This document shows, piece by piece, positions 4,960-25,495 of a stretch of 37,606 nucleotides of DNA (its first letter is position 1; each line of letters opens with the position of its first letter). A program made the translations under genes and the position numbers. Source of the DNA: Peptoniphilaceae bacterium (GTDB lineage: Bacteria > Bacillota > Clostridia > Tissierellales > Peptoniphilaceae); contig JAQYEZ010000047.1 of NCBI GenBank assembly GCA_028723425.1, forward strand, positions 1-37,606, written 5' to 3'. The notes below the pieces were generated by a model. That model did not search any database. It saw only the letters and a program-made list of their open reading frames with translations, and had not been told where the DNA came from.

Positions 4960-5337
4960 ATGTTAAAAAACAATCCAATATTTATGGAATGTGTAAAAGA
5001 TGGTGGCGGTATAGTCTCTGTAGTCACATCTTCCCAAAGCTACGGTCATGTTGCCAATACATGGAACAAATATTTAATAATAGATGATGATAAAATTCTG
5101 ATGCCCTGCTTTGGCTTTAGAAAAACAGAAAAAAACTTGAAGGATAACTCCTATACGGAAGTAATCATTGGCAGTGACAAGGTCCAAGGAAAAATGGGCA
5201 TGGGAACAGGTTTTTTATTAACAGGAAAATCAGAAATTTTAAAAGATGGTCAAGATTTCTAAAGGATGCATGATAAATGTGACTTTGCCAATAGAGTCTT
5301 AGTATTTACAGTAGAAAATATAAAACAAACAATCTAG
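4960..5337 (+). pseudogene. Pyridoxamine-phosphate-oxidase-fold protein with in-frame stop
   Basis: A GAGGAG RBS and ATG begin a 125-codon frame with the split-barrel FMN-binding fold of the pyridoxamine 5'-phosphate oxidase-like family. Residues 1-100 include the substrate/FMN region HVANTWNKY and MGTGFLLTGKSEI. A TAA at 5260-5262 (codon 101) interrupts the frame. The same frame then continues with MHDKCDFANRVLVFTVENIK and stops at 5337, which matches the ordinary end of this family. A single base change therefore separates it from an intact gene. The 100-residue product might keep partial function. Natural mutation and sequencing error cannot be distinguished here. Family members are small flavin reductases of unknown substrate. 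Confidence 0.75.
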
Positions 5338-5343
5338 AATTAA

Positions 5344-5390
5344 AAGGTCTGCTTAAGTATGCAATTTACTCGGCAGACCTTATATTTTTA
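5344..5390 (+). terminator. Terminator after the flavin-fold pseudogene
   Basis: Stem AAGGTCTGC/GCAGACCTT (5344-5352 and 5373-5381) has a 20-base loop and is followed by ATATTTTTA. Confidence 0.7.
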
Positions 5391-5510
5391 TGAGGAAAAT
5401 TAAATTTTTTACTAATATTTTTTATTTAAATTGAGATTAGCATCAAAAAGATCTTTATAATTAAAGAAATAAGACCAATAAGTACAAGTAAAATATGGCT
5501 TGTAGTGAAT

Positions 5511-6269
5511 TTAATTATTTGGATAAATACATTTTACACCATTTTCTTTAAAGAAATCAAAATACTCTTCCTTTACAGGCTTATTTGTAAACACTGTATC
5601 TATATCCTCAAGTCGTGCAAAAGTAAGAAGAGAAGATTTATCAAATTTTGAACTATCTGCCAGTAAATATTTTTTATCAGATATAGTACATATTTTTTTC
5701 TTAATTTGTTGTTCAAGAGGATTGTTGTTAGCAAGTCCATTTTTGATACTAATGGAACTTGCTGCCATAAAGGCTTTATCTATATTAAAATTTAACAAAT
5801 CATTGGTATTTGTTCTATATATAAAAGAATTACTTAACCTAAGGTAATAATTACCAACAATATATAACTCTATATTAGGCATATCTCTAATTTCATTAAT
5901 AATATATAAATTATTTGTTATTAGAGTGATATGTATTTTTTTATCAATATCCATAAGTAAATATCTTACAGTTGTACCAGAATCAATAAAAATTGAATTA
6001 CCATCTTTGATATATTTACTAGCTAATTTGCAGATTTCCTTTTTTTCATCAAAATATAAATTAGATCTTTGATCAAATGTTTGGAGTTTAACAGATTTAG
6101 ATTTTGCTCCTCCATATATTTTTTCTATTAAATTTTCTTTTTCTAACTTTCTTAAATCTCTTCTTACAGTTACAATGGAAACATCAAATAAATTTGCTAG
6201 CTCATCTATTGTAGCTTCTCCTTTTTTCAATATATATTCAGCCATCATTGTGCTTCTATCTTTATTCAT
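5511..6269 (-). CDS. iolR: DeoR/GlpR family regulator, probable inositol operon repressor
   Basis: The 252-residue protein has an N-terminal winged HTH of DeoR type (GEATIDELANLFDVSIVTVRRDLRKLEKENLI at about 17-50; the VRRDL block is typical). A C-terminal DeoR effector domain follows, with FIDSGTT and LADSSKFD motifs, which senses sugar phosphates or related metabolites. The start chosen is the ATG at 6269, with GGAG seven bases upstream; a longer frame to 6311 lacks an RBS. It is divergent from the iol operon, and B. subtilis IolR is of the same family, so repression of iol genes until an inositol catabolite binds is likely. The specific ligand and the iolR name rest on position and family. 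Confidence 0.8.
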   Translation of the reverse strand: MNKDRSTMMAEYILKKGEATIDELANLFDVSIVTVRRDLRKLEKENLIEKIYGGAKSKSVKLQTFDQRSNLYFDEKKEICKLASKYIKDGNSIFIDSGTTVRYLLMDIDKKIHITLITNNLYIINEIRDMPNIELYIVGNYYLRLSNSFIYRTNTNDLLNFNIDKAFMAASSISIKNGLANNNPLEQQIKKKICTISDKKYLLADSSKFDKSSLLTFARLEDIDTVFTNKPVKEEYFDFFKENGVKCIYPNN

Positions 6270-6301
6270 AATAATTCTCCAATAACAATATTCATAAATA
6301 A

Positions 6302-6330
6302 ATAATATCAAAAAAGAAATATAAAAACAA
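6302..6330 (-). promoter_or_regulatory. Candidate promoter for the iolR-like gene
   Basis: On the minus strand TTGTTT (complement 6325-6330) and TATTAT (complement 6302-6307) are 17 bp apart, about 32 bp upstream of the ATG at 6269. Confidence 0.4.
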
Positions 6331-6375
6331 GTTAAGTAAGCTGGAAAAGATTCAAAAAAAAGGATAAATTTTTTA

Positions 6376-6404
6376 TTGACAAGTGATTAAATTAATCATA
6401 TAAT
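6376..6404 (+). promoter_or_regulatory. iol operon promoter, consensus sigma-A
   Basis: TTGACA (6376-6381) and TATAAT (6399-6404) are both perfect consensus hexamers with the ideal 17-bp spacer. The iolB start codon follows 51 bp downstream. A promoter this strong in front of catabolic genes implies tight repression, in line with the operator in its spacer. Confidence 0.9.
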
Positions 6405-6445
6405 ATGAACAAGATAATCAAATAAAGAGAACATTTAATCAAATC
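6384..6445 (+). promoter_or_regulatory. Candidate IolR operator sites
   Basis: TGATTAA-A-TTAATCA (6384-6398) is a perfect inverted repeat filling the -35/-10 spacer of the iol promoter. Two further copies of AATCAAAT lie downstream in the leader (near 6417 and 6437). The half-site resembles the YCAA-type core reported for IolR in B. subtilis. A repressor bound here would block RNA polymerase directly. The binder is assumed to be the divergent DeoR-type protein. Confidence 0.6.
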
Positions 6446-6455
6446 AGGAGAAAAT

Positions 6456-7274
6456 ATGGCTAATTTATTGAGTAAAAGAATGAATTTAATGTGTGATAAT
6501 ATTAGATTTGTTCAAAATGTAGAAATAGGTAATTCTATATTAAAGTATATAGGAACAAAAGTTATAGAAATGAAAAGAGGGGCTAAGTATTCTGCAAGTC
6601 TTGATGGATGTGAAGCTTGTATAGTTGTTTTAAAGGGAAAAGCAAACGTTTATGTTGGCGATAAAAAATATGAAAATATAGGTACAAGGTCAAATATTTT
6701 TGACAAAAATCCTACAGACAGCGTTTATATAGCCAATAAAGATAAATTTACAATTACATCAGATTCAAATAATAAGATTTTAATTGCCTACGCCTTAACA
6801 AATGAAATTAAAAAATCACAATTAATCTTAGCCCATGACAATCTTTGCGAAGACAGGGGCAAAGGAATGAACAAAAGGCATGTGAATAATATGCTAGGTC
6901 CTTCTAATAATATATCAGATAAACTAATAGTTGTGGAAGTTTATACAGATGAAGCAAACTGGTCTTCATATCCTCCTCATAAACATGATGTCGATAGTGA
7001 CGAAGAAACTTTATTAGAAGAAATTTATTATCATGAAATGGATAAACCACAAGGCTTTGTCTTTCAAAGGGTATACACAGACGATTTAACCCTTGATGAA
7101 ACAATGACTGTTTGTAATGAAGATTTGGTTTTGGTTCCCAAAGGATACCATCCAGTAGGTGTTCCATATGGCTATAATTCTTATTACTTAAATGTAATGG
7201 CAGGACCTACAAATAATTGGAAATTTCATAATCAAAAAGAGCATGAATGGATTTTAGAAAGAGAGGACGTATAA
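6456..7274 (+). CDS. iolB: 5-deoxy-glucuronate isomerase
   Basis: The 272-residue double-cupin protein converts 5-deoxy-D-glucuronate to 2-deoxy-5-keto-D-gluconate in myo-inositol breakdown. The family fingerprint is clear: [11 protein letters not shown] with metal-ligand histidines, the acidic [13 protein letters not shown] stretch, then [11 protein letters not shown], and [14 protein letters not shown] with YYLNVMAGP in the second cupin. AGGAG precedes the ATG. It is the first gene of the operon and lies one base from iolA. Length is normal for IolB. Confidence 0.95.
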
Positions 7275-7275
7275 A

Positions 7276-8736
7276 TTGAAAAAGATAAGAAATTATGTCA
7301 ATGGAGAGTGGAAAGATTCTAAAACAGAAGAATTTCTTGATGTATATAATCCTGGTAATGGAAAGGTTATAGGAAAATGTCCTTTAAGTACACAAGAAGA
7401 AACTAAGGAAGCAATAGAGGCGGCAGCTAAGACATTTGAAAGTTGGTCAAAGGTTCCTGTTACCAAAAGAGCTAAAATTTTATTTAAGCTACAAAATATA
7501 CTTGTAGATCATCAAGATGAACTTGCAGATTTAATAACTGAAGAAAACGGTAAAAATCATTCAGATGCTTATGGAGAAGTAGGAAGAGGAATAGAAAACG
7601 TAGAACATGCGGCATCTATAGTAAATTTGCTTATGGGAGATTCACTTTCTACTATAGCTACAGATGTAGATGTCACAAATTATAAGTATCCTATAGGTGT
7701 CATTGGCTGCATATGTCCATTTAATTTTCCTATGATGGTTCCATTTTGGATGTTTCCTATGGCAATAGCTTGTGGTAATACGGTTGTTTTAAAACCATCA
7801 GAAAAAACTCCAATCCTTACTCAAAGAATCATTGAATTATGTGAAGAAGCTGGCCTACCAAAAGGCGTTTTAAACGTTGTTAATGGAGGAAGTGAAGTCG
7901 TTAATGAAATTTTAGTAAATCCAAACATAGTTGGAGTTTCATTTGTAGGAAGCAAAAATGTTGGAGAATATGTATATCATACAGCCAGTGCTCATAATAA
8001 AAGAGTTCAAGTTCTAGGCGGAGCCAAGAATCATACAGTCATATTAAAAGACTGTGATATGGAAGATACAATTAAAAAGGTAATTGGTGGAGCATTTGGG
8101 TCTGCCGGACAAAGGTGCATGGCTGGATCAGTAATTTTAGTTGAAAATGAAATTGCAGATGAATTTGTAGAAAAGTTTACTTTAGCTGCAAAAAAATTGA
8201 AAATAGGAGATGCATCTAGTCAAAGCGATGTTGATTTAGGACCAGTTATAAGAAAAGAAGCTCAAGAAAGAACTTTCAACTATATACAATCAGGTGTGGA
8301 TCAAGGAGCTACTTTAGTATTAGATGGAAGAAAGAATATTCCAAGCGAAGGATTCTTCGTTGGACCAACAATTTTAGACAATTGTACAACCGAGATGAAA
8401 GTTTGGAAAGATGAAATTTTTGCACCTGTAGTATCAATCATTAGAGTAAAAAATTTAAAAAGTGCTATTGATATAGCTAAGAAACATGAATTAGCAAATG
8501 GAGCATGCTTGTTTACAAATAATGCAAAAGCTATCAGATACTTTAGGGAAAATATTCCTGCAGGAATGATAGGCATCAATTTAGGAGTACCTGCACCTGT
8601 GGCATTTTATTCATTCTCTGGCTGGAAAAATTCTTTTTATGGTGATTTACATGCAAATGGAAAAGACGCTGTCTATTTCTATACTAGAAGAAAAGTTGTA
8701 ACTGCTCAATTAAGAACAGGGGGATTTGAAGAATAA
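7276..8736 (+). CDS. iolA: Methylmalonate/malonate semialdehyde dehydrogenase (acylating)
   Basis: The 486-residue CoA-acylating aldehyde dehydrogenase oxidises malonic semialdehyde to acetyl-CoA and CO2 with NAD, the last step of the inositol pathway. Visible features are the NAD-binding KPSEKTP and [12 protein letters not shown] segments and catalytic Cys281 in [11 protein letters not shown]. The catalytic glutamate of ordinary ALDHs is absent in this family; the corresponding region reads [10 protein letters not shown]. Translation begins at TTG 7276, with GAGAGG nine bases upstream; no ATG fits better. The stop overlaps the iolC start by one base, implying coupled translation. Confidence 0.93.
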
Positions 8737-9776
8737 TGAAATACATTAACTTTCCTGAAGATAGGCAATTTGATATTGTCTGTCTGGGGAGAATAGCTGT
8801 AGATTTAAATCCCGTTCCTGAGGAAGGATTTAAGCCTTTAAAAGATGTAAAAAGATTTGAAAAATACATTGGAGGCTCTACTGTTAACACTGCTATAGGT
8901 GTTAACAGACACGGTCTTTCAGTTGGCCTTATGGCAAAAATTTCAGACGATCAATTTGGAGATTTTGCCCTAGATTTTTTAAACAATGAAAAGAATATAG
9001 ATACAAGTCAGATAAAAAGAGCTAAAAACGGTGAAAAAATAGGTCTAACTTTTACTGAAATGCTAGCAGAAAATGAAAGCAACATATTAATGTATAGAAA
9101 TAAAATAGCGGACTTATCAATTGATACTGACGATATAAGCTATGACTATATTAAAAAATCTAAAGCAATTTTAATTTCAGGGACGGCCTTGGCAGAATCA
9201 CCATCTAGGGATGCCGTATTAAAAGCTGTTATCTTGGCAAAAAAGGCTGGTTGTAAAATTATTTTTGATATAGATTTTAGAAATTATAACTGGAAAAATT
9301 ATGATGAGATAGCTATTTATTATTCAATAGTTGCTTCTAATGCAGATATAATTATGGGATCAAGAGAAGAGTTTGATTTAACAGAAAAATTAATTACTGA
9401 CAAAAAATTTACAGACCAAGAAAGCGCAAACTATTGGTTTAAAAAAGGAGCAGAGATACTTGTAATAAAGCATGGAAAAGAAGGGTCTAAGGCATTTACT
9501 AAAAATGGCGAAAGTTACTCTATAAAACCATTCCCAGTAAAATCTAGGAAAGGATTTGGTGGTGGCGACGGATATGCCTCTGGATTTTTATATGCCTTAT
9601 TTAATGATTATGAAATGATAGAATGCCTAGAGATTGCATCTGCAGAAGCATCTATGATGGTTAGAAGCAATAATTGTTCAGAAGACTTGCCTAATACACA
9701 AGAAGTGAAAAAATTCATTGAAGAAACAAAAAAAGAATATGGTGAATTTGTTGCTAGAGGAGATATAAATGACTAG
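8736..9776 (+). CDS. iolC: 5-dehydro-2-deoxygluconokinase
   Basis: This 346-residue PfkB/ribokinase-family enzyme phosphorylates 2-deoxy-5-keto-gluconate with ATP. N-terminal GRIAVDLNP and GGSTVNTAIGVNRHGL form the substrate-binding start. The C-terminal PfkB signature is GFGGGDGYASGF, with the catalytic base at Asp278. The second glycine-rich element is a variant of the common GAGD. The gene starts within the iolA stop codon and overlaps iolD by eight bases. Place in the iol operon settles the substrate among PfkB kinases. Confidence 0.92.
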   Translation: MKYINFPEDRQFDIVCLGRIAVDLNPVPEEGFKPLKDVKRFEKYIGGSTVNTAIGVNRHGLSVGLMAKISDDQFGDFALDFLNNEKNIDTSQIKRAKNGEKIGLTFTEMLAENESNILMYRNKIADLSIDTDDISYDYIKKSKAILISGTALAESPSRDAVLKAVILAKKAGCKIIFDIDFRNYNWKNYDEIAIYYSIVASNADIIMGSREEFDLTEKLITDKKFTDQESANYWFKKGAEILVIKHGKEGSKAFTKNGESYSIKPFPVKSRKGFGGGDGYASGFLYALFNDYEMIECLEIASAEASMMVRSNNCSEDLPNTQEVKKFIEETKKEYGEFVARGDIND

Positions 9777-11691
9777 ATTAACCACAGCTCAAGCTATTAT
9801 TAAATTTTTGGATAATCAATATATTAACTATGACGGTAAGATAACAAAATTTGTTGATGGGATGTTTACAATTTTTGGCCATGGTATGGCAGTAGGACTA
9901 GGTCAAGCCTTGGACGAAAGAGGACACAATTTAAATGTTTATCAAGGAAGAAATGAACAAGGGATGTGTCATGTAGCTATAGCCTATGCCAAACAAAATA
10001 ATAGGAAAAAAATTATAGCTTGCACAGCATCAGTTGGACCAGGATCAGCTAATATGGTCACTGCTGCAGCTTCTGCAACAGTTAATAATATACCTTTGTT
10101 ATTGTTCCCATCAGATACTTTTGCTTCTAGACAACCTGATCCTGTTTTGCAACAAGTACAACAAGCCTACGATCTTACTATAACTACAAATGATGCCTTT
10201 AAGCCAGTAAGTAGATATTGGGATAGGATAAATAGGCCAGAACAAGTTATGACTGCTTTAATTAATGCTATGAGAGTATTAACAGATCCTAGTCAAACTG
10301 GAGCCTGTGTAATTTGTTTACCTCAAGACGTTGAAGGTGAAGCTTATGATTATCCAGATTATTTCTTTAAAAAGAGAATTCATAAAATTTCAAGAACACT
10401 ACCTACACAAACAGATATAGAAGAAGCGATAGAAGCTATAAGAAAGTCTAAAAATCCTATAGCAATTATTGGTGGTGGTGTAAAGTATTCAGAAGCTTCA
10501 AAAGAAGTTTTGGAATTTTTAGAAAAATATAAGATACCTTTTGGAGAAACTCAAGCAGGTAAAAGTGCACTAAAATCTTCATCAGACATGTGCCTAGGTG
10601 GAATAGGAGTAACAGGAACTTATGCTGCAAACGTTATAGCAAAAAAAGCAGACCTAATTTTAAGCATAGGCTCAAGGATGACTGATTTTACAACAAGTTC
10701 AAAGTGGTTATTCCAAAATAAAGATGTAAAAATAGTATCTTTAAACATAAATAGATTTGATGCTTATAAAATGGATGCTATACAAGTAGTAGCTGATGCA
10801 AAAGAAGGAATAAAAGCCTTAGATGAGTGTTTAGGAAAATATAATTATAAGTCATCATATGAAGGAGAAATAAAAGAAGCAAAAGATGTTTGGGATAAAG
10901 AGGTAGAAAGATTAAAAAATTATAGGTATGAAGACCAAGGTTTCACACCTTTGATAAAAAATATGGATCCTAGAACAATAGAAGAATTTGTAAATTTGAC
11001 TGGAGGAAAAATAACACAAACATCGGCAATATTAAAATTAAACGAATTTATGGGCGAAGATGGAATAGTAATAACTGCTGGTGGATCTTTACCAAGTGAC
11101 TTACAAAGGTTGTGGACTACAGATAAAATAGGGGGATATCATGCAGAGTATGGATATTCCTGTATGGGCTATGAAGTTTCGGCAGCTTTAGGAGTAAAGA
11201 TGGCTGAAAAGGACAGTGAGGTTTATGCTGTAGTCGGAGATGGTAGCTTCCAAATGTTACATAGTGAAATGTCTACCATAATTCAAGAAGGCAAAAAGGT
11301 CTATATAGTTGTCTTTGATAATGCAGGTTTTGGCTGCATAAATAATTTAGAGATGAATAATGCGGTTGGTAGTCTTGCTACAGAATTTAGATATAAAAAC
11401 GGAAACTACCCAGAAGGAAATTTAATAACAACTGATTACGCTAAAATAGCAGAGGGATTTGGTTGGAAATCTTATACAGCTAGAACTTTGGAAGAATTTG
11501 AAGCTGCTTTAATAAAATCAAAGAATGATGACAAACCAGTTTTATTTGATTTGAAAGTTATACCAAAAACAATGATTGATGGATATGAAGCTTGGTGGAA
11601 TGTAGGAGTTGCTGAAGTATCAAAAAATGAAAAACAAATGGAAGTATGGGAAAGCACTAAAAAAGCAAGAAATCAAGCTAGAAAATATTAA
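9769..11691 (+). CDS. iolD: 3D-(3,5/4)-trihydroxycyclohexane-1,2-dione hydrolase
   Basis: The 640-residue thiamine-diphosphate enzyme opens the ring of the diketo intermediate to give 5-deoxy-glucuronate. It has the three-domain acetolactate-synthase fold. The N-terminal PYR domain has the catalytic-glutamate segment GRNEQGMCHVAIAYA. A central domain follows, and the C-terminal PP domain has the ThDP/Mg motif GDGSFQMLHSE running to NNLEMNN (about residues 490-520). The ATG lies inside iolC, with GGAG upstream. Length and motifs are standard for IolD. Confidence 0.94.
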   Translation: MTRLTTAQAIIKFLDNQYINYDGKITKFVDGMFTIFGHGMAVGLGQALDERGHNLNVYQGRNEQGMCHVAIAYAKQNNRKKIIACTASVGPGSANMVTAAASATVNNIPLLLFPSDTFASRQPDPVLQQVQQAYDLTITTNDAFKPVSRYWDRINRPEQVMTALINAMRVLTDPSQTGACVICLPQDVEGEAYDYPDYFFKKRIHKISRTLPTQTDIEEAIEAIRKSKNPIAIIGGGVKYSEASKEVLEFLEKYKIPFGETQAGKSALKSSSDMCLGGIGVTGTYAANVIAKKADLILSIGSRMTDFTTSSKWLFQNKDVKIVSLNINRFDAYKMDAIQVVADAKEGIKALDECLGKYNYKSSYEGEIKEAKDVWDKEVERLKNYRYEDQGFTPLIKNMDPRTIEEFVNLTGGKITQTSAILKLNEFMGEDGIVITAGGSLPSDLQRLWTTDKIGGYHAEYGYSCMGYEVSAALGVKMAEKDSEVYAVVGDGSFQMLHSEMSTIIQEGKKVYIVVFDNAGFGCINNLEMNNAVGSLATEFRYKNGNYPEGNLITTDYAKIAEGFGWKSYTARTLEEFEAALIKSKNDDKPVLFDLKVIPKTMIDGYEAWWNVGVAEVSKNEKQMEVWESTKKARNQARKY

Positions 11692-11711
11692 ATATCAAAA
11701 AGGAGAAAAAT

Positions 11712-12614
11712 ATGACAATAAAATTAGCGTGTGCACCAATTGCTTGGACAAATGATGATTTGCCAGAATTAGGTAAAGAGAATACATTCGAACAATGTAT
11801 TTCAGAAATGTCTTTAGCAGGATATCAAGGAACAGAAGTTGGTAACAAATATCCAAGAGATCCTAATATTCTTCATAAATATTTGGATATTAGAAATCTT
11901 GAAGTTGCTTCAGCTTGGTTTTCAGCTTACTTAACAACAAAACCATATGAAGAAACAGAAAAAGCCTTTATAGAACATAGAGACTTCTTACATGCTATGG
12001 GAGCAAAAGTTATTGTTGTTGCAGAACAAGGCCATAGCGTTCAAGGCATGGAAGATGTACCTGTATTTGATGGAAAACCTTATTTTACAGATGAAGAATG
12101 GAAAAAATTAGCAGAAGGATTAAACAAATTAGGTGACTTGGCTCTAGAAAAAGGAATGAAGATAGTATATCACCATCATATGGGAACAGGAGTTCAAACA
12201 AGCGAAGAAGTTGATAAACTAATGGAATTAACTGATCCAAATAAAGTTTTCTTATTATATGATACAGGACATTTAGTATTCTCTGGAGAAGATCCTATAG
12301 AATTTTATAAGAAATATTCAGACAGAATAAAACATATTCATTTTAAGGATGTTAGACAAGATAAGGCAAGAGAAGCTAAAGAGAATAAATGGTCATTCTT
12401 AAAGGCAGTTAAAGAAGGAACCTTTACTGTACCATCTGATGGATGTATAGATTTTGAACCAATTTTAGATCTTATCTATGAAAGAGGTTATGATGGTTGG
12501 ATTGTAGTTGAAGCAGAACAAGACCCTGCCATAGCTAATCCATATTTATACCATAAGAAGGCAAAATCATATATAGACTTATTATTATTGAATAAACAAT
12601 TAAAATATAAATAA
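11712..12614 (+). CDS. iolE: Inosose (2-keto-myo-inositol) dehydratase
   Basis: The 300-residue AP-endonuclease-2-like TIM barrel dehydrates scyllo-inosose to the diketo substrate of IolD. N-terminal APIAWTNDDLPELG is the typical IolE opening. Metal-site motifs include YHHHMGTGVQT, LLYDTGHL, HIHFKDVR and VVEAEQDP. AAGGAG stands before the ATG, 20 bases after iolD. No anomalies are seen. Confidence 0.95.
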   Translation: MTIKLACAPIAWTNDDLPELGKENTFEQCISEMSLAGYQGTEVGNKYPRDPNILHKYLDIRNLEVASAWFSAYLTTKPYEETEKAFIEHRDFLHAMGAKVIVVAEQGHSVQGMEDVPVFDGKPYFTDEEWKKLAEGLNKLGDLALEKGMKIVYHHHMGTGVQTSEEVDKLMELTDPNKVFLLYDTGHLVFSGEDPIEFYKKYSDRIKHIHFKDVRQDKAREAKENKWSFLKAVKEGTFTVPSDGCIDFEPILDLIYERGYDGWIVVEAEQDPAIANPYLYHKKAKSYIDLLLLNKQLKYK

Positions 12615-12635
12615 ATTTAATAGTAAGGAGATTAT

Positions 12636-14246
12636 ATGTTTTTTGTAATAGCAAGTTTTGCTTTAGTAGTTACTCTTATAGGCTTTATAGCCTATAAGAA
12701 AACTAGAAGTATGGTTGATACCACTAATTCGGAAGGATATTTCCTAGGCGGTAAATCGTTAGCAGCTCCTGTTGTTGCAGGTACTATTATTATGACAAAT
12801 TTGTCTACAGAACAAATTGTTGGTCAAAATGGTCAAAGTTATGTTGCAGGAATGCAAGTAATGGCATGGGAAGTAACTGCTGCTATATCAATAGCACTCT
12901 TGGCGGCGATTTTTTTACCAAAATATTTTAGGTATGGAATCAATACAATATCTGACTTTCTAGAAATAAGATATGATACAGCAACCAAAAGAATTGTATC
13001 AATCCTATTCATTATTACTTATATGGTAAGCTTCATGCCTGTAGTCTTGTACTCAGGATCATTAGTATTTAATAAAATATTTCATGTTGATGAAATTTTA
13101 GGAGTAGATCCTATAATAGCAGTAGCAATTATGGCTATGTTTATTGGAGTTGTTGGAGTATTATATCTATTTTTAGGAGGAATGACTTTATCAGCCTATA
13201 GTGATACAATTTATCAATTTGGTCTAATAATTGGTGGTTTATCTATTCCATTTTTAGGCTTAAAAATTTTAGGTGATGGTAATTTTGTTCAAGGAGTTCA
13301 AAGTATGATTAATACTACACCTGAACTCTTAAATTCAATAGGAGCTATAGACTCAAACTATGTTCCTTGGCCTACTTTATTCACTGGAATGTTTTTTAAC
13401 AACTTATTTTTCTGGTGTACAAATCAAATGATTGTCCAAAAAGCATTTGCTGCTAGAAATTTAAAAGAAGCTCAAAAGGGAGCTATTATGGTAGGAGTCT
13501 TTAAAATATTTGGTGCCTTATTTTTAGTATTACCAGGAGTTGTAGCTAGAAATCTTTTTGGAGGCAAATTTATGGATTTACCAGATTCAGCTTATCCAAG
13601 TTTAGTAGTTGAAGTTTTGCCCCAATGGGCAATGGGCCTATTTGGAGCAGTAATCTTTGGAGCAATACTTTCTTCATTTGCTGGTAGTCTTAGTTCAACA
13701 AGCACTCTATTTGTTTTAGATTTCTACAAGCCAATGATCAATAGTGAGGCTACAGATGCTCAGATGACAAGAGTAGGAAGAATAGTAAATGTAGTACTTG
13801 GATTTACAGCTATAATAGTTGCACCTTTTATTTCAAAGGCGGGTGCTGGTCTATATGCTTTTGTTCAAGAATTTAACGGCTTATATAATATGCCACTTTT
13901 AATTATGATTTTTTGTGCATTTTATTATAATAAAGCAACGGCAAGCGCTGCAAAAACAACAATGATTTTCCATGTTATAGTATATTCATTGTCAAAAGTA
14001 TTTTTAAAACAAATACATTATCTTTATGTTTTAAGTATTTTATTTTTTGTAGACTTGCTAGTCATGATACTTGTAAGCAGACTTACAAGTAAGGGTAAGG
14101 TTCAATTTGATTTAAGTGAATTTTCAACAGCAACAGAAGTAGAAAATTCACAATGGGGAAAAGTAAAGATAGCGTCAATTTTAGTAACGTTAGTAGTAGT
14201 AGCAGTATACCTATTCTTCTCACCATTAGGTATAGCAAAAGTATAA
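12636..14246 (+). CDS. Sodium:solute symporter, probable inositol uptake
   Basis: The 536-residue protein of the SSS (SLC5/SGLT) family has about 13-14 hydrophobic spans. The family signature appears as FFWCTNQMIVQKAFAARNLKEAQKG, and the first span is followed by GYFLGGKSLAAP. It couples solute entry to sodium. Within the iol operon, between iolE and iolG, its likely cargo is myo-inositol or a stereoisomer, although SSS proteins span sugars, vitamins and acids and substrate cannot be read from sequence. AAGGAG lies close to the ATG. Confidence 0.85.
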   Translation: MFFVIASFALVVTLIGFIAYKKTRSMVDTTNSEGYFLGGKSLAAPVVAGTIIMTNLSTEQIVGQNGQSYVAGMQVMAWEVTAAISIALLAAIFLPKYFRYGINTISDFLEIRYDTATKRIVSILFIITYMVSFMPVVLYSGSLVFNKIFHVDEILGVDPIIAVAIMAMFIGVVGVLYLFLGGMTLSAYSDTIYQFGLIIGGLSIPFLGLKILGDGNFVQGVQSMINTTPELLNSIGAIDSNYVPWPTLFTGMFFNNLFFWCTNQMIVQKAFAARNLKEAQKGAIMVGVFKIFGALFLVLPGVVARNLFGGKFMDLPDSAYPSLVVEVLPQWAMGLFGAVIFGAILSSFAGSLSSTSTLFVLDFYKPMINSEATDAQMTRVGRIVNVVLGFTAIIVAPFISKAGAGLYAFVQEFNGLYNMPLLIMIFCAFYYNKATASAAKTTMIFHVIVYSLSKVFLKQIHYLYVLSILFFVDLLVMILVSRLTSKGKVQFDLSEFSTATEVENSQWGKVKIASILVTLVVVAVYLFFSPLGIAKV

Positions 14247-14265
14247 AAAAATTAAGGAGAAAAAG

Positions 14266-15270
14266 ATGAAAAAATTAAACGTTGGAATATTTGGAGCAGG
14301 TAGAATTGGACAAATTCATGCAAATAATTTATCAAGAAATCCTATTATCAATATAAAGAGAATTGTAGACCCTATGGCAGATAAACTTGGTGAATTTGAA
14401 AAACAAATAGGAATAAAAATAGAAACAGATCCACAAGTTATATTTGACGATGAAGAGATAGAGGCAGTTTTAATTTGTACACCAACAGATACCCATGTTG
14501 ATTATATAATAAAATCTGCAAAGGCAGGCAAACACATATTTTGTGAAAAACCTGTAAGTTTATCAGACGAAGAATCTATGAGAGCTTATAAGGCCGTTAA
14601 GGAAGCTGGCGTAAAATTCCAAATAGGCGTTAACAGAAGATATGATAGGAACTTTGCATATGTTAAAAAAATGGTTGATGAAGGCAAAGTTGGAAAATTG
14701 GAACTTTTGAGAGTTGATTCTAGAGATCCAGAACCACCTTCACTTGATTATGTAAAATCTTCAGGTGGTTTATTTATGGATATGATGATTCATGACTTTG
14801 ATATGGCTAGATATATTTCAAATCAAGAAATAACAGAAGTATATGTAAATGCAGATGCAATAGTTAATAAAGACATCAAAGATATAGATGTTGATACAGC
14901 TATTGTAAACTTAAAATTCAGTGACGGAGCAATAGGAGTAATTTTAAATAGTAGAAGAGCAGAATATGGATATGATCAAAGATTAGAAGCTTTTGGATCT
15001 AAAGGAACTGCTATGGTAGAAAATGACCTAGATGCAAATGTTATATATGCCGATAAAGACGGTTATCATACACCAAATCCACAATATTTCTTCTTAGAAA
15101 GATATACACAATCTTATATAGATGAAGTAAATGACTTTGCTCAAGCAGTATTTGAAGATAGACAAACAAGTGTTACTTTTGATGATGCTATCATGGCCCA
15201 AAGATGTGCGATTGCAGCAAAAGAATCACTAGATACTAAAAAACCTGTAAAAGTTAGGATGATTGATTAA
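14266..15270 (+). CDS. iolG: myo-Inositol 2-dehydrogenase
   Basis: The 334-residue GFO/IDH/MocA-family oxidoreductase oxidises myo-inositol to scyllo-inosose with NAD, the entry step of the pathway. Rossmann motif GAGRIGQIHANNL begins the protein. The EKP motif (FCEKPVSLS) supplies the catalytic lysine. GGLFMDMMIHDFDMARY holds the Asp and His of the active site and is the IolG-typical form. AAGGAG precedes the ATG, and its stop overlaps the next ATG by one base. A second paralogue lies 320 bases downstream; of the two this one looks more like classical IolG. Confidence 0.9.
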   Translation: MKKLNVGIFGAGRIGQIHANNLSRNPIINIKRIVDPMADKLGEFEKQIGIKIETDPQVIFDDEEIEAVLICTPTDTHVDYIIKSAKAGKHIFCEKPVSLSDEESMRAYKAVKEAGVKFQIGVNRRYDRNFAYVKKMVDEGKVGKLELLRVDSRDPEPPSLDYVKSSGGLFMDMMIHDFDMARYISNQEITEVYVNADAIVNKDIKDIDVDTAIVNLKFSDGAIGVILNSRRAEYGYDQRLEAFGSKGTAMVENDLDANVIYADKDGYHTPNPQYFFLERYTQSYIDEVNDFAQAVFEDRQTSVTFDDAIMAQRCAIAAKESLDTKKPVKVRMID

Positions 15271-15578
15271 TGTCAAAAAACATATTGATTATAGCAGAAA
15301 CAGGCATATCATCTAAACTATTTTTAGAAAAATTTGAAAATTTCTTAAACTACGCCTCTTCAAATTCAAAGGTTGAGCTTACTAGTTTAAATGATTTTGT
15401 TGAGAATCTAGACAATGAAAAATATACAAATGTCTTATTAGCACCAAATGCACATGTTTTAGAAGTTCATGTCAAAGATTATTTGAACAGGGTAAAATCA
15501 GATGCCAAAGTTTCTCTGATATCAGAAAAAGATTATATGATGATGAATGTTGAAAAAATAGTGATAGATTTATTATAG
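15270..15578 (+). CDS. PTS lactose/cellobiose EIIB-like protein without the active-site cysteine
   Basis: The 102-residue protein follows the EIIB plan of the lactose/cellobiose PTS family. It opens with beta strand ILIIAETGISSKLFLEKF, then a central NVLLAPNAHVLEVHVKDYL that aligns with the EIIB DVVLLGPQ...L block, and ends with KDYMMMNVEKIVIDLL, like the usual DYGxMNGEKVL ending. EIIB proteins are phosphorylated on a cysteine in the first loop (CxAGMS). Here that position is alanine (IAETGIS, residue 9), and the protein has no cysteine at all. No EIIA or EIIC is nearby; uptake appears to use a sodium symporter. Phosphotransfer is therefore not expected, and a regulatory or scaffold role is possible. 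It is coupled to iolG by a one-base overlap. Homology is my reading of the pattern; function is unknown. Confidence 0.65.
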   Translation: MSKNILIIAETGISSKLFLEKFENFLNYASSNSKVELTSLNDFVENLDNEKYTNVLLAPNAHVLEVHVKDYLNRVKSDAKVSLISEKDYMMMNVEKIVIDLL

Positions 15579-15590
15579 GAGATTAGGGCA

Positions 15591-16595
15591 ATGATTAATA
15601 TTGGACATATAGGTCTAGGAAGAATGGGAGAATTTCACGCTAGAACCTTAAAATCTTTACCAAATGCAAATTTATATGCAATTTGTGATTTAGATGAGAA
15701 AAAATTAAATGAAATTTCAGATCAATTAGAAGTTGAACATAGGTATACAGACTTTGATGAGATGATAAAAGATGAAAATATAGATGCAATAACTATAGCA
15801 TCTCCTTCTCATTTACACACCCAATTTATAACTAAGGCATTAAATGCAGGCAAACATGTTTTTTCTGAAAAACCATTAGGAGTTACAGTTGAAGAATGCA
15901 AAAAAGCAGAAAAAGCTGTAGAAGCAAATCCAGACAAAATCTTTATGCTTGGTTTTATGAGGAGATTTGATAAATCATACAGATATGCTAAGGAGGCAAT
16001 TGATCAAGGAAAAATCGGAAAAGTTTATATGGTAAGATCATACTCTCAAGATCCGACATCAGCTATAGAGGGAGCTATAAAATTTGGACCACATAGTGGT
16101 GGAGAGTTTCTTGATATGTGTGTTCATGACATAGATTTGATAAGGTGGTATACATCGGCAGAACCTAAGCAAGTATGGGCGATAGGAGGCTGCTATGCTT
16201 ATGATGAATTCAAAGATTGGAATGATGGCGATAATGTCTCTGCTCTATTAAAATTAGACAATGATGCAATGGCCTTCTTGTTTGCAGGTAGAACTGCCCC
16301 ACATGGTTATAATGTGGAAACAGAAATTATGGGCACAGAAGGAATATTAAGAATTGGATCAGTTCCACAAGCAAATATGGTTGAAATTTTAGATAATAAA
16401 GGCGTAAGAAAAGAAATATCTCAATCATTTATTGAAAGATTTGGAGATAGCTTCAAAGCTGAATTAAAAGAATTTGTAGATTGCATTGAGAAAAATAGAA
16501 AGCCTGAAATAACAGTTTATGATGGAACAAGAGTATCAGAGATAGCATACAAATGCAAAGAATCATTTGAAACAGGAAAATTAATTAATATTTAA
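15591..16595 (+). CDS. Second inositol dehydrogenase (IolG-like)
   Basis: The 334-residue GFO/IDH/MocA oxidoreductase has Rossmann motif GLGRMGEFHARTL, catalytic EKP (FSEKPLGVT) and GGEFLDMCVHDIDLIRWY with the Asp/His active-site pair. It is a paralogue of the iolG two genes upstream but clearly diverged. In other bacteria, additional copies act on scyllo-inositol, D-chiro-inositol or rare sugars, so the pair may broaden the range of inositol isomers used. AGGAG lies upstream of the ATG. It is the last gene before a strong terminator-like hairpin. The precise substrate cannot be set from sequence. Confidence 0.85.
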   Translation: MINIGHIGLGRMGEFHARTLKSLPNANLYAICDLDEKKLNEISDQLEVEHRYTDFDEMIKDENIDAITIASPSHLHTQFITKALNAGKHVFSEKPLGVTVEECKKAEKAVEANPDKIFMLGFMRRFDKSYRYAKEAIDQGKIGKVYMVRSYSQDPTSAIEGAIKFGPHSGGEFLDMCVHDIDLIRWYTSAEPKQVWAIGGCYAYDEFKDWNDGDNVSALLKLDNDAMAFLFAGRTAPHGYNVETEIMGTEGILRIGSVPQANMVEILDNKGVRKEISQSFIERFGDSFKAELKEFVDCIEKNRKPEITVYDGTRVSEIAYKCKESFETGKLINI

Positions 16596-16603
16596 TGAAT
16601 TGT

Positions 16604-16690
16604 AAAGACTGCTTTTAAATTAAGGAGACCGCTTAGATGATTTTAAGTTAATCTTTTGAGGTTTATCTTAATAAGCAGTCTTTTTTTTAT
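16604..16690 (+). terminator. Large hairpin terminator of the iol operon
   Basis: Outer arms AAAGACTGCTT (16604-16614) and AAGCAGTCTTT (16673-16683) are followed by a T run. A second helix, ATTAAG/CTTAAT, extends the stem. The loop contains AAGGAG and an ATG that opens only a four-codon frame, which is probably coincidental. Confidence 0.8.
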
Positions 16691-16920
16691 TTTAACATTT
16701 ACAAAATGCCATTGGATACTATAGACTGGCATAATGGAATGATAAAAGAGGCTACTGGAGACTATAAAGCATAATGTTTACTGTTTTAACTATCTACCTA
16801 AAGATAAATTTAAAGCATTCTTCTATCTATGCCAAATTATTTTCTTTTTTACAATAATAAAGTAAAATACTTATAAATGAAGACACTTAAAAGGTAGTTA
16901 ATAATTAAGAGGAGATATAA
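16691..16920 (+). other. Intergenic region upstream of thrS
   Basis: About 230 bp separate the iol terminator from thrS. A 22-codon frame (16706-16774, MPLDTIDWHNGMIKEATGDY...) has no RBS and no recognised relative; it may be a gene remnant. No T-box leader, with its conserved GGTGGNACCGCG-like element and terminator, is seen before thrS. I could not assign a convincing promoter. Confidence 0.5.
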
Positions 16921-20988: not shown

Positions 20989-22296
20989 TTAAGGCTCACT
21001 TTTTATCTCATAGATTTTCTTTCTCTTATAGGATGATGGAAGAGCGAGGATTTTTCTGTATTTTTGGATAGCCCTTCTGCTTATCTTTATATCCATTTTT
21101 TTTAGTTTTTCTTCTATTTTTTGATCTGAAAGAGGATTTTTTTTATCTTCTTCTTTGATCAAGAGTCCTACTATCTTTAAGATGTAATCTTTTGATACTG
21201 TGTTTAACCTAGTAGCTGTTGAGAAAAGATCATGTAAGCCTATTATTCCTTTTGGGCTTTCTATATATTTATCAAATACAGCTCTTGACACGGTTGATTC
21301 TGATATATTTAGAGCTTTTGCCAAGTTTTTTTGGCTTATAGGCCTTAGGGGGAGATTTTTTATAAAATAATCTTTTTGGTAGTTTATTAGATATTTTGCT
21401 ATAGACTCTAGGGTTTGATTTCTTTTGTCTATAGACTTTTTTATTAGTAGAGTTCTTGAAAGCTTGTTTCTAAGGTAGGATTTGGTATCTTTGTCTATAT
21501 TTTTTCCCAAAAGTTCTAGATAGTGTTGGTTTAGGCTAATTGGATTAGATGTATTAACTTCTATATTTATTTTATCAAGATCAAAGCTTACGAATATTTC
21601 TGGAATTACAAGTTTTTCAAAATTTATCAAATCTAAAGTAGATCCAGGATAAGGATTTAAGTCTTCTAATTTTTTGATAAGATATAAAAGCTCGGTTTTA
21701 TTGATGGACATTTCTTTTAAAATCTTGTCATAGTTATTTTCATATAGGTCCATTAGGTAATTTTCTATAAGAATTTTTAATTTTTCATCTGTGGTTTGAA
21801 TTTGTGCCAACAGACAATCTTTTAAATTTATAGCACCAATGCCCAAGGGATCAAAGCTAGTTAAGATTTTTTGGCAGTCTTTTACAAAAGAAATGGAAAC
21901 ATTAAGCTTTGTGGATACATCTTTAAGGCTTATATCAAGATAGCCCTTACTATCTAAAGAATAAATTAGGTATTTTATTACCCTTTCCCTAGATGGATCA
22001 AGAGATTTTTCTATTAATTGAAAAATAAGGTAGTCTTGAAGGGTGGTTTTTTTAGAGTTTACTTGGTCAAAATCTATAGTTTCTTTTTTGATAGCTACTT
22101 TTTCTGTAGGGATTAAGTCAGCTATAAATTTTTCGTTAGAAAAATAATCTTTCAAGTCTAACATAACGTTTTCTTCATTTTCCTTTTTTAGAAAATTATC
22201 TAAGTCGATTTTTGACATAGAAAGGACTTTTAAAGACTGGATTAACTGGTTTGATATATTTATATTTTGTTTTAATAATAAGTCTAAATTAATCAT
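20989..22296 (-). CDS. rpoN: RNA polymerase sigma-54 factor
   Basis: The 435-residue sigma-54 directs polymerase to -24/-12 promoters and needs an ATP-driven activator. Region I is the N-terminal LLLKQNINISNQLIQSLKVL followed by the acidic linker. The core-binding domain spans about 80-260. The HTH has ISESTVSRAVFDKYI, and the RpoN box near the C-terminus reads ISRRAIQKYRKIL, a variant of ARRTVAKYRE. Its neighbour is a divergently transcribed TyrR-like activator with a near-consensus -24/-12 promoter, so sigma factor, activator and target promoter lie side by side. Confidence 0.93.
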   Translation of the reverse strand: MINLDLLLKQNINISNQLIQSLKVLSMSKIDLDNFLKKENEENVMLDLKDYFSNEKFIADLIPTEKVAIKKETIDFDQVNSKKTTLQDYLIFQLIEKSLDPSRERVIKYLIYSLDSKGYLDISLKDVSTKLNVSISFVKDCQKILTSFDPLGIGAINLKDCLLAQIQTTDEKLKILIENYLMDLYENNYDKILKEMSINKTELLYLIKKLEDLNPYPGSTLDLINFEKLVIPEIFVSFDLDKINIEVNTSNPISLNQHYLELLGKNIDKDTKSYLRNKLSRTLLIKKSIDKRNQTLESIAKYLINYQKDYFIKNLPLRPISQKNLAKALNISESTVSRAVFDKYIESPKGIIGLHDLFSTATRLNTVSKDYILKIVGLLIKEEDKKNPLSDQKIEEKLKKMDIKISRRAIQKYRKILALPSSYKRKKIYEIKSEP

Positions 22297-22347
22297 GCTA
22301 AATTTTTATTTAATATTCTTCCTTGAAATTTAAAGTTTTGTTTAAAT

Positions 22348-22393
22348 ATAAGCCATGGTACAAAAATAAGCCACATGGTTTGATAATAAACCA
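22348..22393 (+). promoter_or_regulatory. Candidate enhancer (UAS) for the TyrR-like activator
   Basis: TGGTTT-N6-AAACCA (22376-22393) is a perfect inverted repeat with the same 6-6-6 geometry as TyrR boxes (TGTAAA-N6-TTTACA). Two copies of ATAAGCCA lie just upstream (22348 and 22366). The palindrome is centred about 140 bp upstream of the expected sigma-54 start site, a normal enhancer distance. Confidence 0.55.
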
Positions 22394-22500
22394 CTTATAA
22401 GCTATAATTGTTTTAGGATTAAAGCTTTATAAAAGCCAAATATTTTTGCTGATATTGGGAAATGGTTTTTCTTGAGTTTATTATAACTCAAAAGATAAGT

Positions 22501-22516
22501 TGGCACAAATTTTGCT
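22501..22516 (+). promoter_or_regulatory. Sigma-54 promoter of the TyrR-like/nhaC operon
   Basis: TGGCACAAATTTTGCT matches the -24/-12 consensus TGGCACG-N4-TTGCW at every defined base but one, with exact GG-GC spacing. The expected start site is near 22527, giving a short leader with GAGGTAGG before ATG 22543. With rpoN divergent and the first gene encoding a sigma-54 activator, autoactivation is likely. Confidence 0.8.
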
Positions 22517-22542
22517 AGTATATATAGTGAGGTAGGAAATTA

Positions 22543-24054
22543 ATGATAAAGAGAATAAAGATAATTTTCACTATTGATAGACACCATATAACTTATGAGG
22601 TACTTAAAGTTTTAAAAGATCATGACATACCAATTATTTCTATGGAGGTCTATGCTAACGAGATCTATCTCAAACTTCCCCATATGACCAAGGAATTAAC
22701 AGAAAAAGTCTATAAGCAATGGGAAAAAATCAAAGGCTTTCATCATGTAGAAGAGATAGATGTGATGAGCTTTGAAAAGAAGGATGTTGAAATAGAGTCG
22801 GTATTAAATTTTATTTCAGAGGGGGTGATAATGCTAGGAAGGAAGGGAACAATTGAATATATAAACAAGAAAGCAAAAGCTTATTTTTCTCCCATGGAGG
22901 AAGGAGATTACATATATTCCCATATAGGTGGCAAAGAGTTAAGGGATTTTTTCCTAATGGATAAGAAAAAAATCAAAAATATGATGTTTATCCACAACAA
23001 CACAGCTTATATCATGGATATTGACAGAATATATTCTGAAGAAAAGATTTTTTGTGGATATTTTGCCACAGTAAATGAAGTTGATATGGCAAGATCGGCT
23101 ACGGCAAATTACATTACTTTTGATGATATTATAGGAAAGTCTCCAAAACTTTTGGATACTATAGAAATAGCCAAGCTATTTTCAGATTCTGATACTAATA
23201 TCTTGCTTTTGGGTGAAAGTGGTACAGGTAAGGAGATGTTTGCCAGGGCTATTCACTCTTATTCAAGACCAGAATACAAGTTTATGGGAATAAATTGTGC
23301 AGCTATACCTGAAGAACTTTTGGAATCAGAACTATTCGGCTATGAGCCAGGAACTTTTACTGGTGGAGCTGATGAAGGGAGAATAGGTATATTTGAAGCT
23401 TGCTCTGGAGGGACGGTTTTTTTGGATGAGATAGGTGAGCTAAATTACCACTTACAGGCTAAAATTTTGAGAGCTATCCAAGAAAGAAGAATCAGAAGGC
23501 TAGGATCCAACAAGGAAGTAAGTCTTGATGTAAGAATTATTTCTGCAACCAACAGAGATCTAAAAAAACTTATAGAAGAAGGAAAGTTTAGACTTGACTT
23601 GTACTATAGGTTGAATACTTTTACAGTAGAAATTCCGCCTTTAAGAGATAGAAGAGGGGATTTGAAAATTCTTACTGATTACTTTTTAAATAGGATGCAG
23701 GCTAGGTACAAAAAAGATAAGATAATTATCTCCAAAGAGGCTTATGATTTGCTTGACTCCTATTTGTGGCCGGGAAATATAAGGGAATTGCAAAATGTTT
23801 TGGAAAGGGCAGTTGTTCTTGCAAAAGATTCTATAATCTTACCTGAACATATCTTATTTGATCATGATGCAGATGAACTTCTTATATCAGAATCAAGTTC
23901 ATTGAAAGATGCCGTAGAAGCTTTTGAGAAAAATTATATAAAAAAAGCGCTAGATAATTCTATATCCATTAGGGATGCAGCAAGAAAGTTAGAAACGACT
24001 CACACATTATTGATAAATAGAATGAAAAAGTATTCTATAGAAAAAAAGAGGTAA
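22543..24054 (+). CDS. TyrR-like sigma-54-dependent transcriptional regulator
   Basis: The 503-residue activator has an N-terminal ACT-like domain (about 1-75), a PAS domain (about 80-165), an AAA+ sigma-54 interaction domain (about 195-430) and a C-terminal Fis-type HTH (RDAARKLETTHTLLINRMKKY). Walker A is GESGTGKE, and Walker B is GGTVFLDEIGEL. The sigma-54 contact loop GAFTGA reads GTFTGG, keeping the key Phe and Thr. ACT plus PAS is the TyrR layout, which senses amino acids. It lies three bases from an NhaC-family carrier gene with methionine gamma-lyase next, so it probably activates amino-acid uptake and breakdown. The ligand is unknown. Confidence 0.88.
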   Translation: MIKRIKIIFTIDRHHITYEVLKVLKDHDIPIISMEVYANEIYLKLPHMTKELTEKVYKQWEKIKGFHHVEEIDVMSFEKKDVEIESVLNFISEGVIMLGRKGTIEYINKKAKAYFSPMEEGDYIYSHIGGKELRDFFLMDKKKIKNMMFIHNNTAYIMDIDRIYSEEKIFCGYFATVNEVDMARSATANYITFDDIIGKSPKLLDTIEIAKLFSDSDTNILLLGESGTGKEMFARAIHSYSRPEYKFMGINCAAIPEELLESELFGYEPGTFTGGADEGRIGIFEACSGGTVFLDEIGELNYHLQAKILRAIQERRIRRLGSNKEVSLDVRIISATNRDLKKLIEEGKFRLDLYYRLNTFTVEIPPLRDRRGDLKILTDYFLNRMQARYKKDKIIISKEAYDLLDSYLWPGNIRELQNVLERAVVLAKDSIILPEHILFDHDADELLISESSSLKDAVEAFEKNYIKKALDNSISIRDAARKLETTHTLLINRMKKYSIEKKR

Positions 24055-24057
24055 ATT

Positions 24058-25416
24058 ATGAATAATATGGAAAATAAAAAAGGTAAGTTTTCGGCCCTAA
24101 TTCCATTTTTGGTTTTTATAGGGGTATATCTTGGGGTTGGAATTAAGCTTACAACTGGCGGAGAAGCTATGGGCTTTTATGCTTTTAAGGCACCTATAGC
24201 TGTAATTCTTGGAATAATTGCGGCTTTCTTCTTGATTAAAGGAAGTATTGATGAGAAATTTGATATCTTTATAAAAGGATGTGGAGAAGAAAATATTATC
24301 ATCATGTGCATTATTTATCTTTTGGCTGGAGCTTTCTCCACAGTATCAAAAGAAATGGGAGGAGTAGAGTCAACAGTTAACCTTGGCCTTACAATAATTC
24401 CTCCATCACTAATAACTGTTGGCATGTTTGTTATAGCATCCTTTATTTCTATAGCAACAGGTACATCAGTTGGAACAATAGTTGCACTTGCCCCAATAGG
24501 AATTGGTTTTGCAGAAAAAACTACTATATCTTTGCCACTTATGATTGGTTCTTTGATTGGTGGAGCAATGTTTGGTGATAACTTATCAGTTATTTCTGAT
24601 ACTACAATTGCAGCAACCAGAACCCAAGGTGTTCAAATGAAAGATAAGTTTAGATGTAACGTCGCTATGGCAGCCCCTGCTATGCTAGTTACTATAATCT
24701 TATTACTAATCTTTGGTAGACCAGAAGTTGCACCAGCAAAAGAAGTTTATAAGTATGACATTATAAAGGTTATTCCTTACATATTCGTTCTAGTTACAGC
24801 CCTTGCAGGAATGAACGTATTTATAGTTTTGGTTTCTGGAACTGTAATATCAGGAGCTATTGGCCTATATTATGGAGCCTTTGGTTTGTTAGATCTTACA
24901 AATCATATCTATGATGGTTTTGTTGGAATGTTTGAAATTTTCCTACTTTCTCTATTAACAGGAGGCCTTGCAGCCCTTGTAAGACATGGAGGAGGACTTT
25001 TATGGATAACAGAAAAAATTAGGGGAACAATTAAGGGTAGAAAATCGGCAGAACTTGGTATAGCTGCTATGACAGCCCTAACAGATGTTGCGGTTGCAAA
25101 TAACACAGTAGCTATTATAATTGATGGACCTATAGCTAGAAATATTTGCGAAGAATTTAAGGTAGACCCAAGAAGATCAGCCTCCTTGCTTGATTCCTTT
25201 GGAGCTATTTTCCAAGGCTTTATCCCTTATGGAGCACAAATTTTAATGGCAGTCCAATTTACAGAAGGTGCCGTAACTCCGTTTGCAGTTATGCCATATC
25301 TATGGTACCAATTTGCTCTTGCCTTCTTTGTAATCCTATCAATTTATATACCATTTGCAGATGGCTATCTAAACAAACATCCATGGGATTTCGAAAAGTG
25401 GCAAGATGCTGAATAA
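24058..25416 (+). CDS. NhaC-family transporter, possible amino-acid carrier
   Basis: The 452-residue protein with about 11-12 membrane spans belongs to the NhaC Na+/H+ antiporter family. Conserved segments include ATGTSVGTIVALAPIG, GGAMFGDNLSVISDTTIAATRTQGV and ADVAVANNTVAIIIDGPIA-like stretches. NhaC proteins annotated as antiporters include sodium-coupled methionine or tyrosine carriers. Here the gene follows a TyrR-like regulator and precedes methionine gamma-lyase, which favours amino-acid uptake, perhaps methionine. The cargo is inferred only from context. Its ATG lies three bases after the regulator's stop. Confidence 0.8.
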   Translation: MNNMENKKGKFSALIPFLVFIGVYLGVGIKLTTGGEAMGFYAFKAPIAVILGIIAAFFLIKGSIDEKFDIFIKGCGEENIIIMCIIYLLAGAFSTVSKEMGGVESTVNLGLTIIPPSLITVGMFVIASFISIATGTSVGTIVALAPIGIGFAEKTTISLPLMIGSLIGGAMFGDNLSVISDTTIAATRTQGVQMKDKFRCNVAMAAPAMLVTIILLLIFGRPEVAPAKEVYKYDIIKVIPYIFVLVTALAGMNVFIVLVSGTVISGAIGLYYGAFGLLDLTNHIYDGFVGMFEIFLLSLLTGGLAALVRHGGGLLWITEKIRGTIKGRKSAELGIAAMTALTDVAVANNTVAIIIDGPIARNICEEFKVDPRRSASLLDSFGAIFQGFIPYGAQILMAVQFTEGAVTPFAVMPYLWYQFALAFFVILSIYIPFADGYLNKHPWDFEKWQDAE

Positions 25417-25495
25417 AAATTTATATATTAAATATAAGATAAAAATTTGTTAAAAGAAGCTTAGTAAAAAGAGAAATATTTATAAGGAGTAAAAA

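Follow-up and report, generated by a model that had tools for sequence, protein, structure and literature searches.

A phosphocysteine-less EIIB-fold protein encoded in the inositol operon of a Peptoniphilaceae bacterium and its Anaerococcus relatives

An inositol operon with an EIIB-fold gene between two dehydrogenases

The window, the whole 37,606-nucleotide stretch of contig JAQYEZ010000047.1 that was analyzed, carries an inositol catabolic (iol) operon (Table 1). A DeoR-family gene is transcribed divergently from iolB, iolA, iolC, iolD, iolE, a transporter gene, iolG1, a 102-amino-acid open reading frame here called EIIBx, and iolG2. The iolB, A, C, D, E, and G products all scored over the cut-offs of their models (TIGR04378, TIGR01722, TIGR04382, TIGR04377, TIGR04379, and TIGR04380, respectively), and IolG1 and IolG2 both keep the catalytic EKP and DxxxHD motifs. 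A first-pass annotation had described a cysteine-less EIIB-like protein in this operon, with a sodium symporter as the operon's transporter. The frame and the symporter held up: EIIBx contains no cysteine, has its own start and stop without fusion to helix-turn-helix (HTH) or PRD domains, and carries the noted DYMMMNVEKI ending at residues 88 to 97.

TABLE 1 Coordinates of the iol operon and of features of EIIBx in the window
Feature	Position	Strand	Remark
DeoR-family regulator, divergent from operon	5511..6311	-	Several DeoR-family models, none over cut-off
iolB, 5-deoxy-glucuronate isomerase	6456..7274	+	Over curated cut-off
iolA, methylmalonate-semialdehyde dehydrogenase subfamily	7276..8736	+	Over curated cut-off
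iolC, 5-dehydro-2-deoxygluconokinase	8736..9776	+	Over curated cut-off
iolD	9769..11691	+	Over curated cut-off
iolE, inosose dehydratase	11712..12614	+	Over curated cut-off
Sodium/solute symporter	12636..14246	+	NF007790 over cut-off
iolG1, inositol 2-dehydrogenase	14266..15270	+	TIGR04380 over cut-off; EKP, DxxxHD kept
iolG1 stop codon	15268..15270	+	Base 15270 shared with EIIBx start
EIIBx, Cys-less EIIB(lac/cel)-fold protein, 102 aa	15270..15578	+	ATG start
Pseudo-active-site loop A9-E10-T11-G12-I13-S14	15294..15311	+	Invariant in 5/5 members; Ala9 is phosphocysteine position
iolG2, second IolG-type dehydrogenase	15591..16595	+	TIGR04380 just over cut-off; EKP, DxxxHD kept

A single-sequence scan of genome contigs returned no relative, and a profile scan found four, all in Anaerococcus (A. 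tetradius, A. porci, A. nagyae, and an Anaerococcus metagenome-assembled genome [MAG]; loci L015 to L018, with A. tetradius as L016). The iolG1 and EIIBx frames overlap at all five loci, by one base at four and by eleven bases in A. nagyae. One-base coupling had been claimed for both dehydrogenases; it is present on the iolG1 side, while iolG2 starts 12 bases past the EIIBx stop codon. The order iolG1-EIIBx-iolG2 is kept at four loci.

In the region between the DeoR-family gene and iolB (within 6290 to 6470) there is a TTGACA-17-TATAAT promoter whose spacer holds the inverted repeat TGATTAAATTAATCA; AATCAAA motifs come after it. The divergent DeoR-family gene is also present at L016, L017, and L018, and all three have a similar promoter (TTGACA-17-TATAAT, or TAAAAT in L018) and ATCAAA motifs before iolB; L015 ends inside iolD, so that its upstream end lies outside the sequence. 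The repeat and motifs are candidates for the operator bound by the DeoR-family regulator. No site fitting the cre (catabolite-repression) consensus was found in positions 5001 to 16700, and an Rfam search of the window gave no match at the gathering score. Farther downstream (20989 to 26689), a sigma-54-factor-like gene (minus strand) and a sigma-54-type activator gene (plus strand) diverge from each other, and the activator gene is followed by an NhaC-like antiporter and then a methionine gamma-lyase-like gene, as named from their translations.

Divergence from EIIB(lac/cel) and absence of the phosphocysteine

Several comparisons place EIIBx in the lactose/cellobiose-type EIIB fold of the phosphotransferase system (PTS). 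NF007155/PRK09590 matched all five family members; the match to the window copy (E=2.2e-5) scored 24.9 bits, under the curated cut-off of 101. CelA (PDB 2l2q) matched at E=0.0014, aligning its cysteine opposite Ala9, and hhalign of the five-row family against nine cysteine-bearing EIIBs (Cys-EIIBs) gave a probability of 98.8 and E=7e-17. The predicted structure is an EIIB(lac/cel) fold over its full length, in line with the EIIB outline read in the first-pass annotation. Pfam PF02302 does not match EIIBx, marking it as divergent from EIIB(lac/cel). In a tree, the EIIBx clade was supported at 100/100 on a long branch (1.83), with no firm nearest EIIB and a program warning of long branches meeting. 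Chance resemblance to EIIB is ruled out by the profile, profile-profile, and fold evidence, and alternative labels were far under cut-offs or at chance level (DHNA, E=0.1; FosLL, E=0.03; NXPE4_C, E=0.059; 2a58, E=0.14).

All five members read I-L-I-I-A-E-T-G-I-S across the P-loop, with alanine in place of the phosphocysteine, as had been claimed for residue 9 of the window copy. The same loop in every member rules out a chance or sequencing slip. The cysteine is kept in 30/30 PF02302 domains examined in the five carrier genomes, out of 36 matches of which six without a locus were left out; the 30 include one EIIB (L106) whose matched stretch starts after its cysteine, which was located by eye. 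EIIBx cannot pass phosphate by the EIIB cysteine route. The claim that no other cysteine exists applies to the window copy only, as each of the four orthologues has cysteine outside the P-loop, and one column, aligned with Asn32 of the window copy, carries it in all four. The structure model puts this column in the loop joining helix 1 to strand 2, at the opposite end of the fold from the active site, and judging by the alignment a redox or other cysteine role may exist in those four proteins.

The conservation of EIIBx is uneven. Using helix and strand limits taken from the structure model, invariant residues make up 16/24 positions in the active-site-end loops and first helix turns versus 6/21 at the opposite end, a contrast that is a description and not a test because the residue set was picked after the alignment was viewed. 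Invariant residues account for 8/18 positions in strands and 11/37 in the remainder. Among 100 circular shifts, including the true register, one reached 16, and these statistics are weak, with five members of which three are 85 to 95% identical. Ten of the 16 invariant face residues (9, 10, 11, 13, 40, 41, 43, 58, 60, and 61) occur in none of six compared Cys-EIIBs, and G12, S14, P59, and Y89 match all six. By the alignment, then, conservation in EIIBx is highest on the pseudo-active face, yet this face is changed relative to Cys-EIIBs. Because 10/16 invariant face residues are foreign to the compared Cys-EIIBs, we read it as a surface that docks a new partner and not as the retained site of an old one. 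The label "dead EIIB" undersells a protein whose pseudo-active face is both the most conserved region and mostly unlike that of Cys-EIIBs.

Selection, distribution, and linkage to iol genes

Estimates of dN/dS for EIIBx were 0.026 in the closest pair and 0.089 to 0.247 in the other six computable pairs, with dS near saturation and 3 of the 10 pairs not computable. Protein identity in the seven wider pairs was 49 to 66%, versus 74 to 81% for IolG1. The gene evolves faster than those for IolG1, IolG2, and IolE but is constrained, and these codon comparisons indicate that purifying selection acts on it.

EIIBx was found in 5/31 genomes of the genus Anaerococcus, in which the window's genome is also placed. 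The same five genomes are the only carriers of iolB among those 31 and of iolE among 130 genomes of the family. As EIIBx and the iol genes are passed on together, this co-occurrence may reflect a single event, in which case the five genomes are not independent. A. tetradius (G005) provides the one exception in gene content: directly behind an intact EIIBx, the best iolG2 match is a C-terminal remnant with one stop (L016:12360-12600, covering query residues 268 to 334). EIIBx function is therefore independent of IolG2. The other iol genes of A. tetradius read as full-length frames.

Outside the genus, matches led back to ordinary EIIBs. A class-level search (E<=1e-6) found EIIBx matches in 2/391 genomes, both of the same genus. 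A phylum-level search (E<=1e-4) found matches in 5/398, namely the window's genome and four whose matches keep the P-loop cysteine; when the open reading frames around these four were read, EIIA-like and EIIC-like genes lay beside three, and the fourth had an EIIC-like gene nearby. The best matches of the EIIBx profile outside the genus were likewise ordinary Cys-EIIBs. Plasmid searches returned 11 Ligilactobacillus records at 26.5% identity, labeled cellobiose PTS, and viral contigs gave no match. The first-pass annotation had also allowed that close orthologues might keep the cysteine next to EIIA and EIIC genes; the close orthologues all lack the P-loop cysteine.

Among the iol operons surveyed, the cysteine-less gene was seen in this genus only. 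No EIIB was detected in 26 regions that surround homologues of IolG1, a set that includes many loci other than iol operons, or in 15 regions representing one per non-genus genome with iolE over the cut-off (398 genomes searched; two with iolE under the cut-off, G674 and G654, were left out). EIIB matches in non-genus regions were at chance level only (best E=0.14 in the first set; two fragments in L154 of the second set, E=0.044), and contig ends truncate some of the regions (e.g., L161). The open reading frame filter drops iolE in L150 and L151; the profile search of the 15 regions used unfiltered stop-to-stop frames, and its positive control consisted of sequences inside the profile and shows that the search ran, no more. 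Within the searched set, the lack of EIIBs in these 15 regions and the cysteine in the best outside matches point to capture at the level of the genus.

The operon was said to lack EIIA and EIIC. No PF02302 or PF02255 match occurs on the window's contig, and no EIIA or EIIC gene lies beside EIIBx, where iol genes and the symporter flank it (EIIC being judged from annotated neighbors). The claim does not extend to the genome, which encodes EIIA-lac and many Cys-EIIBs elsewhere; nine PF02255 EIIA genes are spread over all five carrier genomes. In A. tetradius, a PTS locus adjoins the iol operon that carries the pseudo-EIIB: a Cys-bearing EIIB (L016:1188-1511; PF02302, E=4e-20) is about 0.8 kb from the iol DeoR-family gene, with an EIIA-lac match about 2.5 kb farther out.

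Candidate roles and relation to known EIIB proteins

Catalytically dead relatives of signaling proteins frequently turn into regulators. The proposal that a retained EIIB has a non-phosphotransfer job here is well supported by alanine in all five species, purifying selection, strict linkage to iol genes, and the EIIB fold, and EIIBx is probably a former relay part now serving inositol use by binding or control. A lactose/cellobiose-type EIIB would have lost its phosphocysteine, been captured as a pseudo-EIIB into the iol operon in an ancestral Anaerococcus, and been retained for a binding role. Translated together with IolG1 by coupled translation, it would use its remodeled face to dock a partner, the likeliest being the inositol 2-dehydrogenase IolG1. 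As an accessory or inhibitory subunit it would tune the step that opens inositol breakdown, and it may activate, restrain, or scaffold the enzyme. A partnership with both dehydrogenases had been suggested earlier. Since A. tetradius lost most of iolG2 and kept EIIBx, this narrows to IolG1, as the better candidate only. That EIIBx is made in step with IolG1 and binds it is a tentative proposal from gene arrangement, to which we give somewhat less than even chances. Frame overlap and gene order are also compatible with a partner encoded by another operon gene or present elsewhere in the cell, and IolG proteins in other bacteria seem to do without such a subunit, given the 15 non-genus iolE loci devoid of EIIB.

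An alternative we consider unlikely, yet worth weighing, is that EIIBx docks the lac/cel-type EIIA of another PTS without taking phosphate, acting as a decoy or sensor that links inositol use to the state of the sugar PTS. The conserved face of EIIBx corresponds to the face through which EIIBs contact EIIA. The four residues shared with all compared Cys-EIIBs fit such docking, as do the IIA-IIB complex entry 2wy2 among the fold matches and the PTS locus close to the A. tetradius iol operon. The presence of EIIA-lac in all five carriers also agrees but says little, as the count covers EIIBx carriers only, and the foreign residues at 10/16 invariant face positions favor a new partner. A fuller version, in which EIIBx reads the phosphorylation state of the sugar PTS by docking EIIA and relays it by contact to the inositol dehydrogenase or regulator, is doubtful. 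If true, a broken PTS part would have been made into a post-translational switch that sets carbon preference for a substrate outside the PTS.

It is about as doubtful that EIIBx modulates iol transcription by binding either the divergently encoded DeoR-family protein or a small effector, for example, the phosphorylated pathway intermediate. The DeoR-family gene is divergent at all four loci where it is seen, and EIIB-like domains serve as multimerization parts in regulators, as reported in PMC8560693. Yet EIIBx is near the distal end of the operon and is coupled to iolG1, not to the regulator gene, and the invariant Glu10 in the loop gives no hint of phosphate binding, even if some Cys-EIIBs have an Asp after the cysteine (e.g., L106).

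A passive relic, with a nearly idle peptide whose frame persists as an RNA-level spacer for iolG1-iolG2 translational coupling, is improbable: EIIBx is short, is flanked by two dehydrogenase genes, and changes faster than they do, but its low dN/dS, its invariant pseudo-active face, and its integrity beside the decayed iolG2 of A. tetradius oppose this. Active phosphotransfer through another residue, to which the fold, the part of the loop kept, and the cysteine of four of the five members might be thought to point, is scarcely credible given a window copy without any cysteine, the distance of the others' cysteine from the active site, a contig free of EIIA-lac and EIIB matches, and a sodium symporter as the operon's transporter.

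Because EIIBx is under selection, keeps a constant gene neighborhood, and has a single obvious candidate as partner, its role is open to simple biochemistry. If it controls the inositol dehydrogenase, this would be a new way of regulating inositol use in a host-associated anaerobe.

The closest known system is PTS EIIB(lac/cel) (PF02302; NF007155; solved as 1iib, 4mge, and 2l2q), from which EIIBx differs in having alanine for the phosphocysteine, a remodeled active-site face, no PF02302 match, no EIIA or EIIC partner genes, and a home in a non-PTS catabolic operon. In the E. coli fructose permease, a duplicated IIB' domain is cysteine-less and kept as a docking module. That domain is part of a working PTS permease and of the fructose-type EIIB, whereas EIIBx is free-standing and of the lac/cel type. 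In open-licence literature, the titles and abstract starts of the matches listed mention neither a free cysteine-less EIIB nor an EIIB in an iol operon. The EIIB-like domains of PRD regulators are reported to be needed for dimerization (PMC8560693), and EIIBx resembles the EIIB(Gat)-like domains of MtlR, AtxA, and Mga in that an EIIB fold would serve regulation or multimerization and not transport. In AtxA and RivR, a cysteine of the EIIB(Gat)-like domain is implicated in dimerization, whereas EIIBx of the window has none. The EIIB(Gat)-like domains belong to another EIIB subclass and form C-terminal parts of DNA-binding proteins, in contrast to EIIBx, which is a free protein of 102 amino acids.
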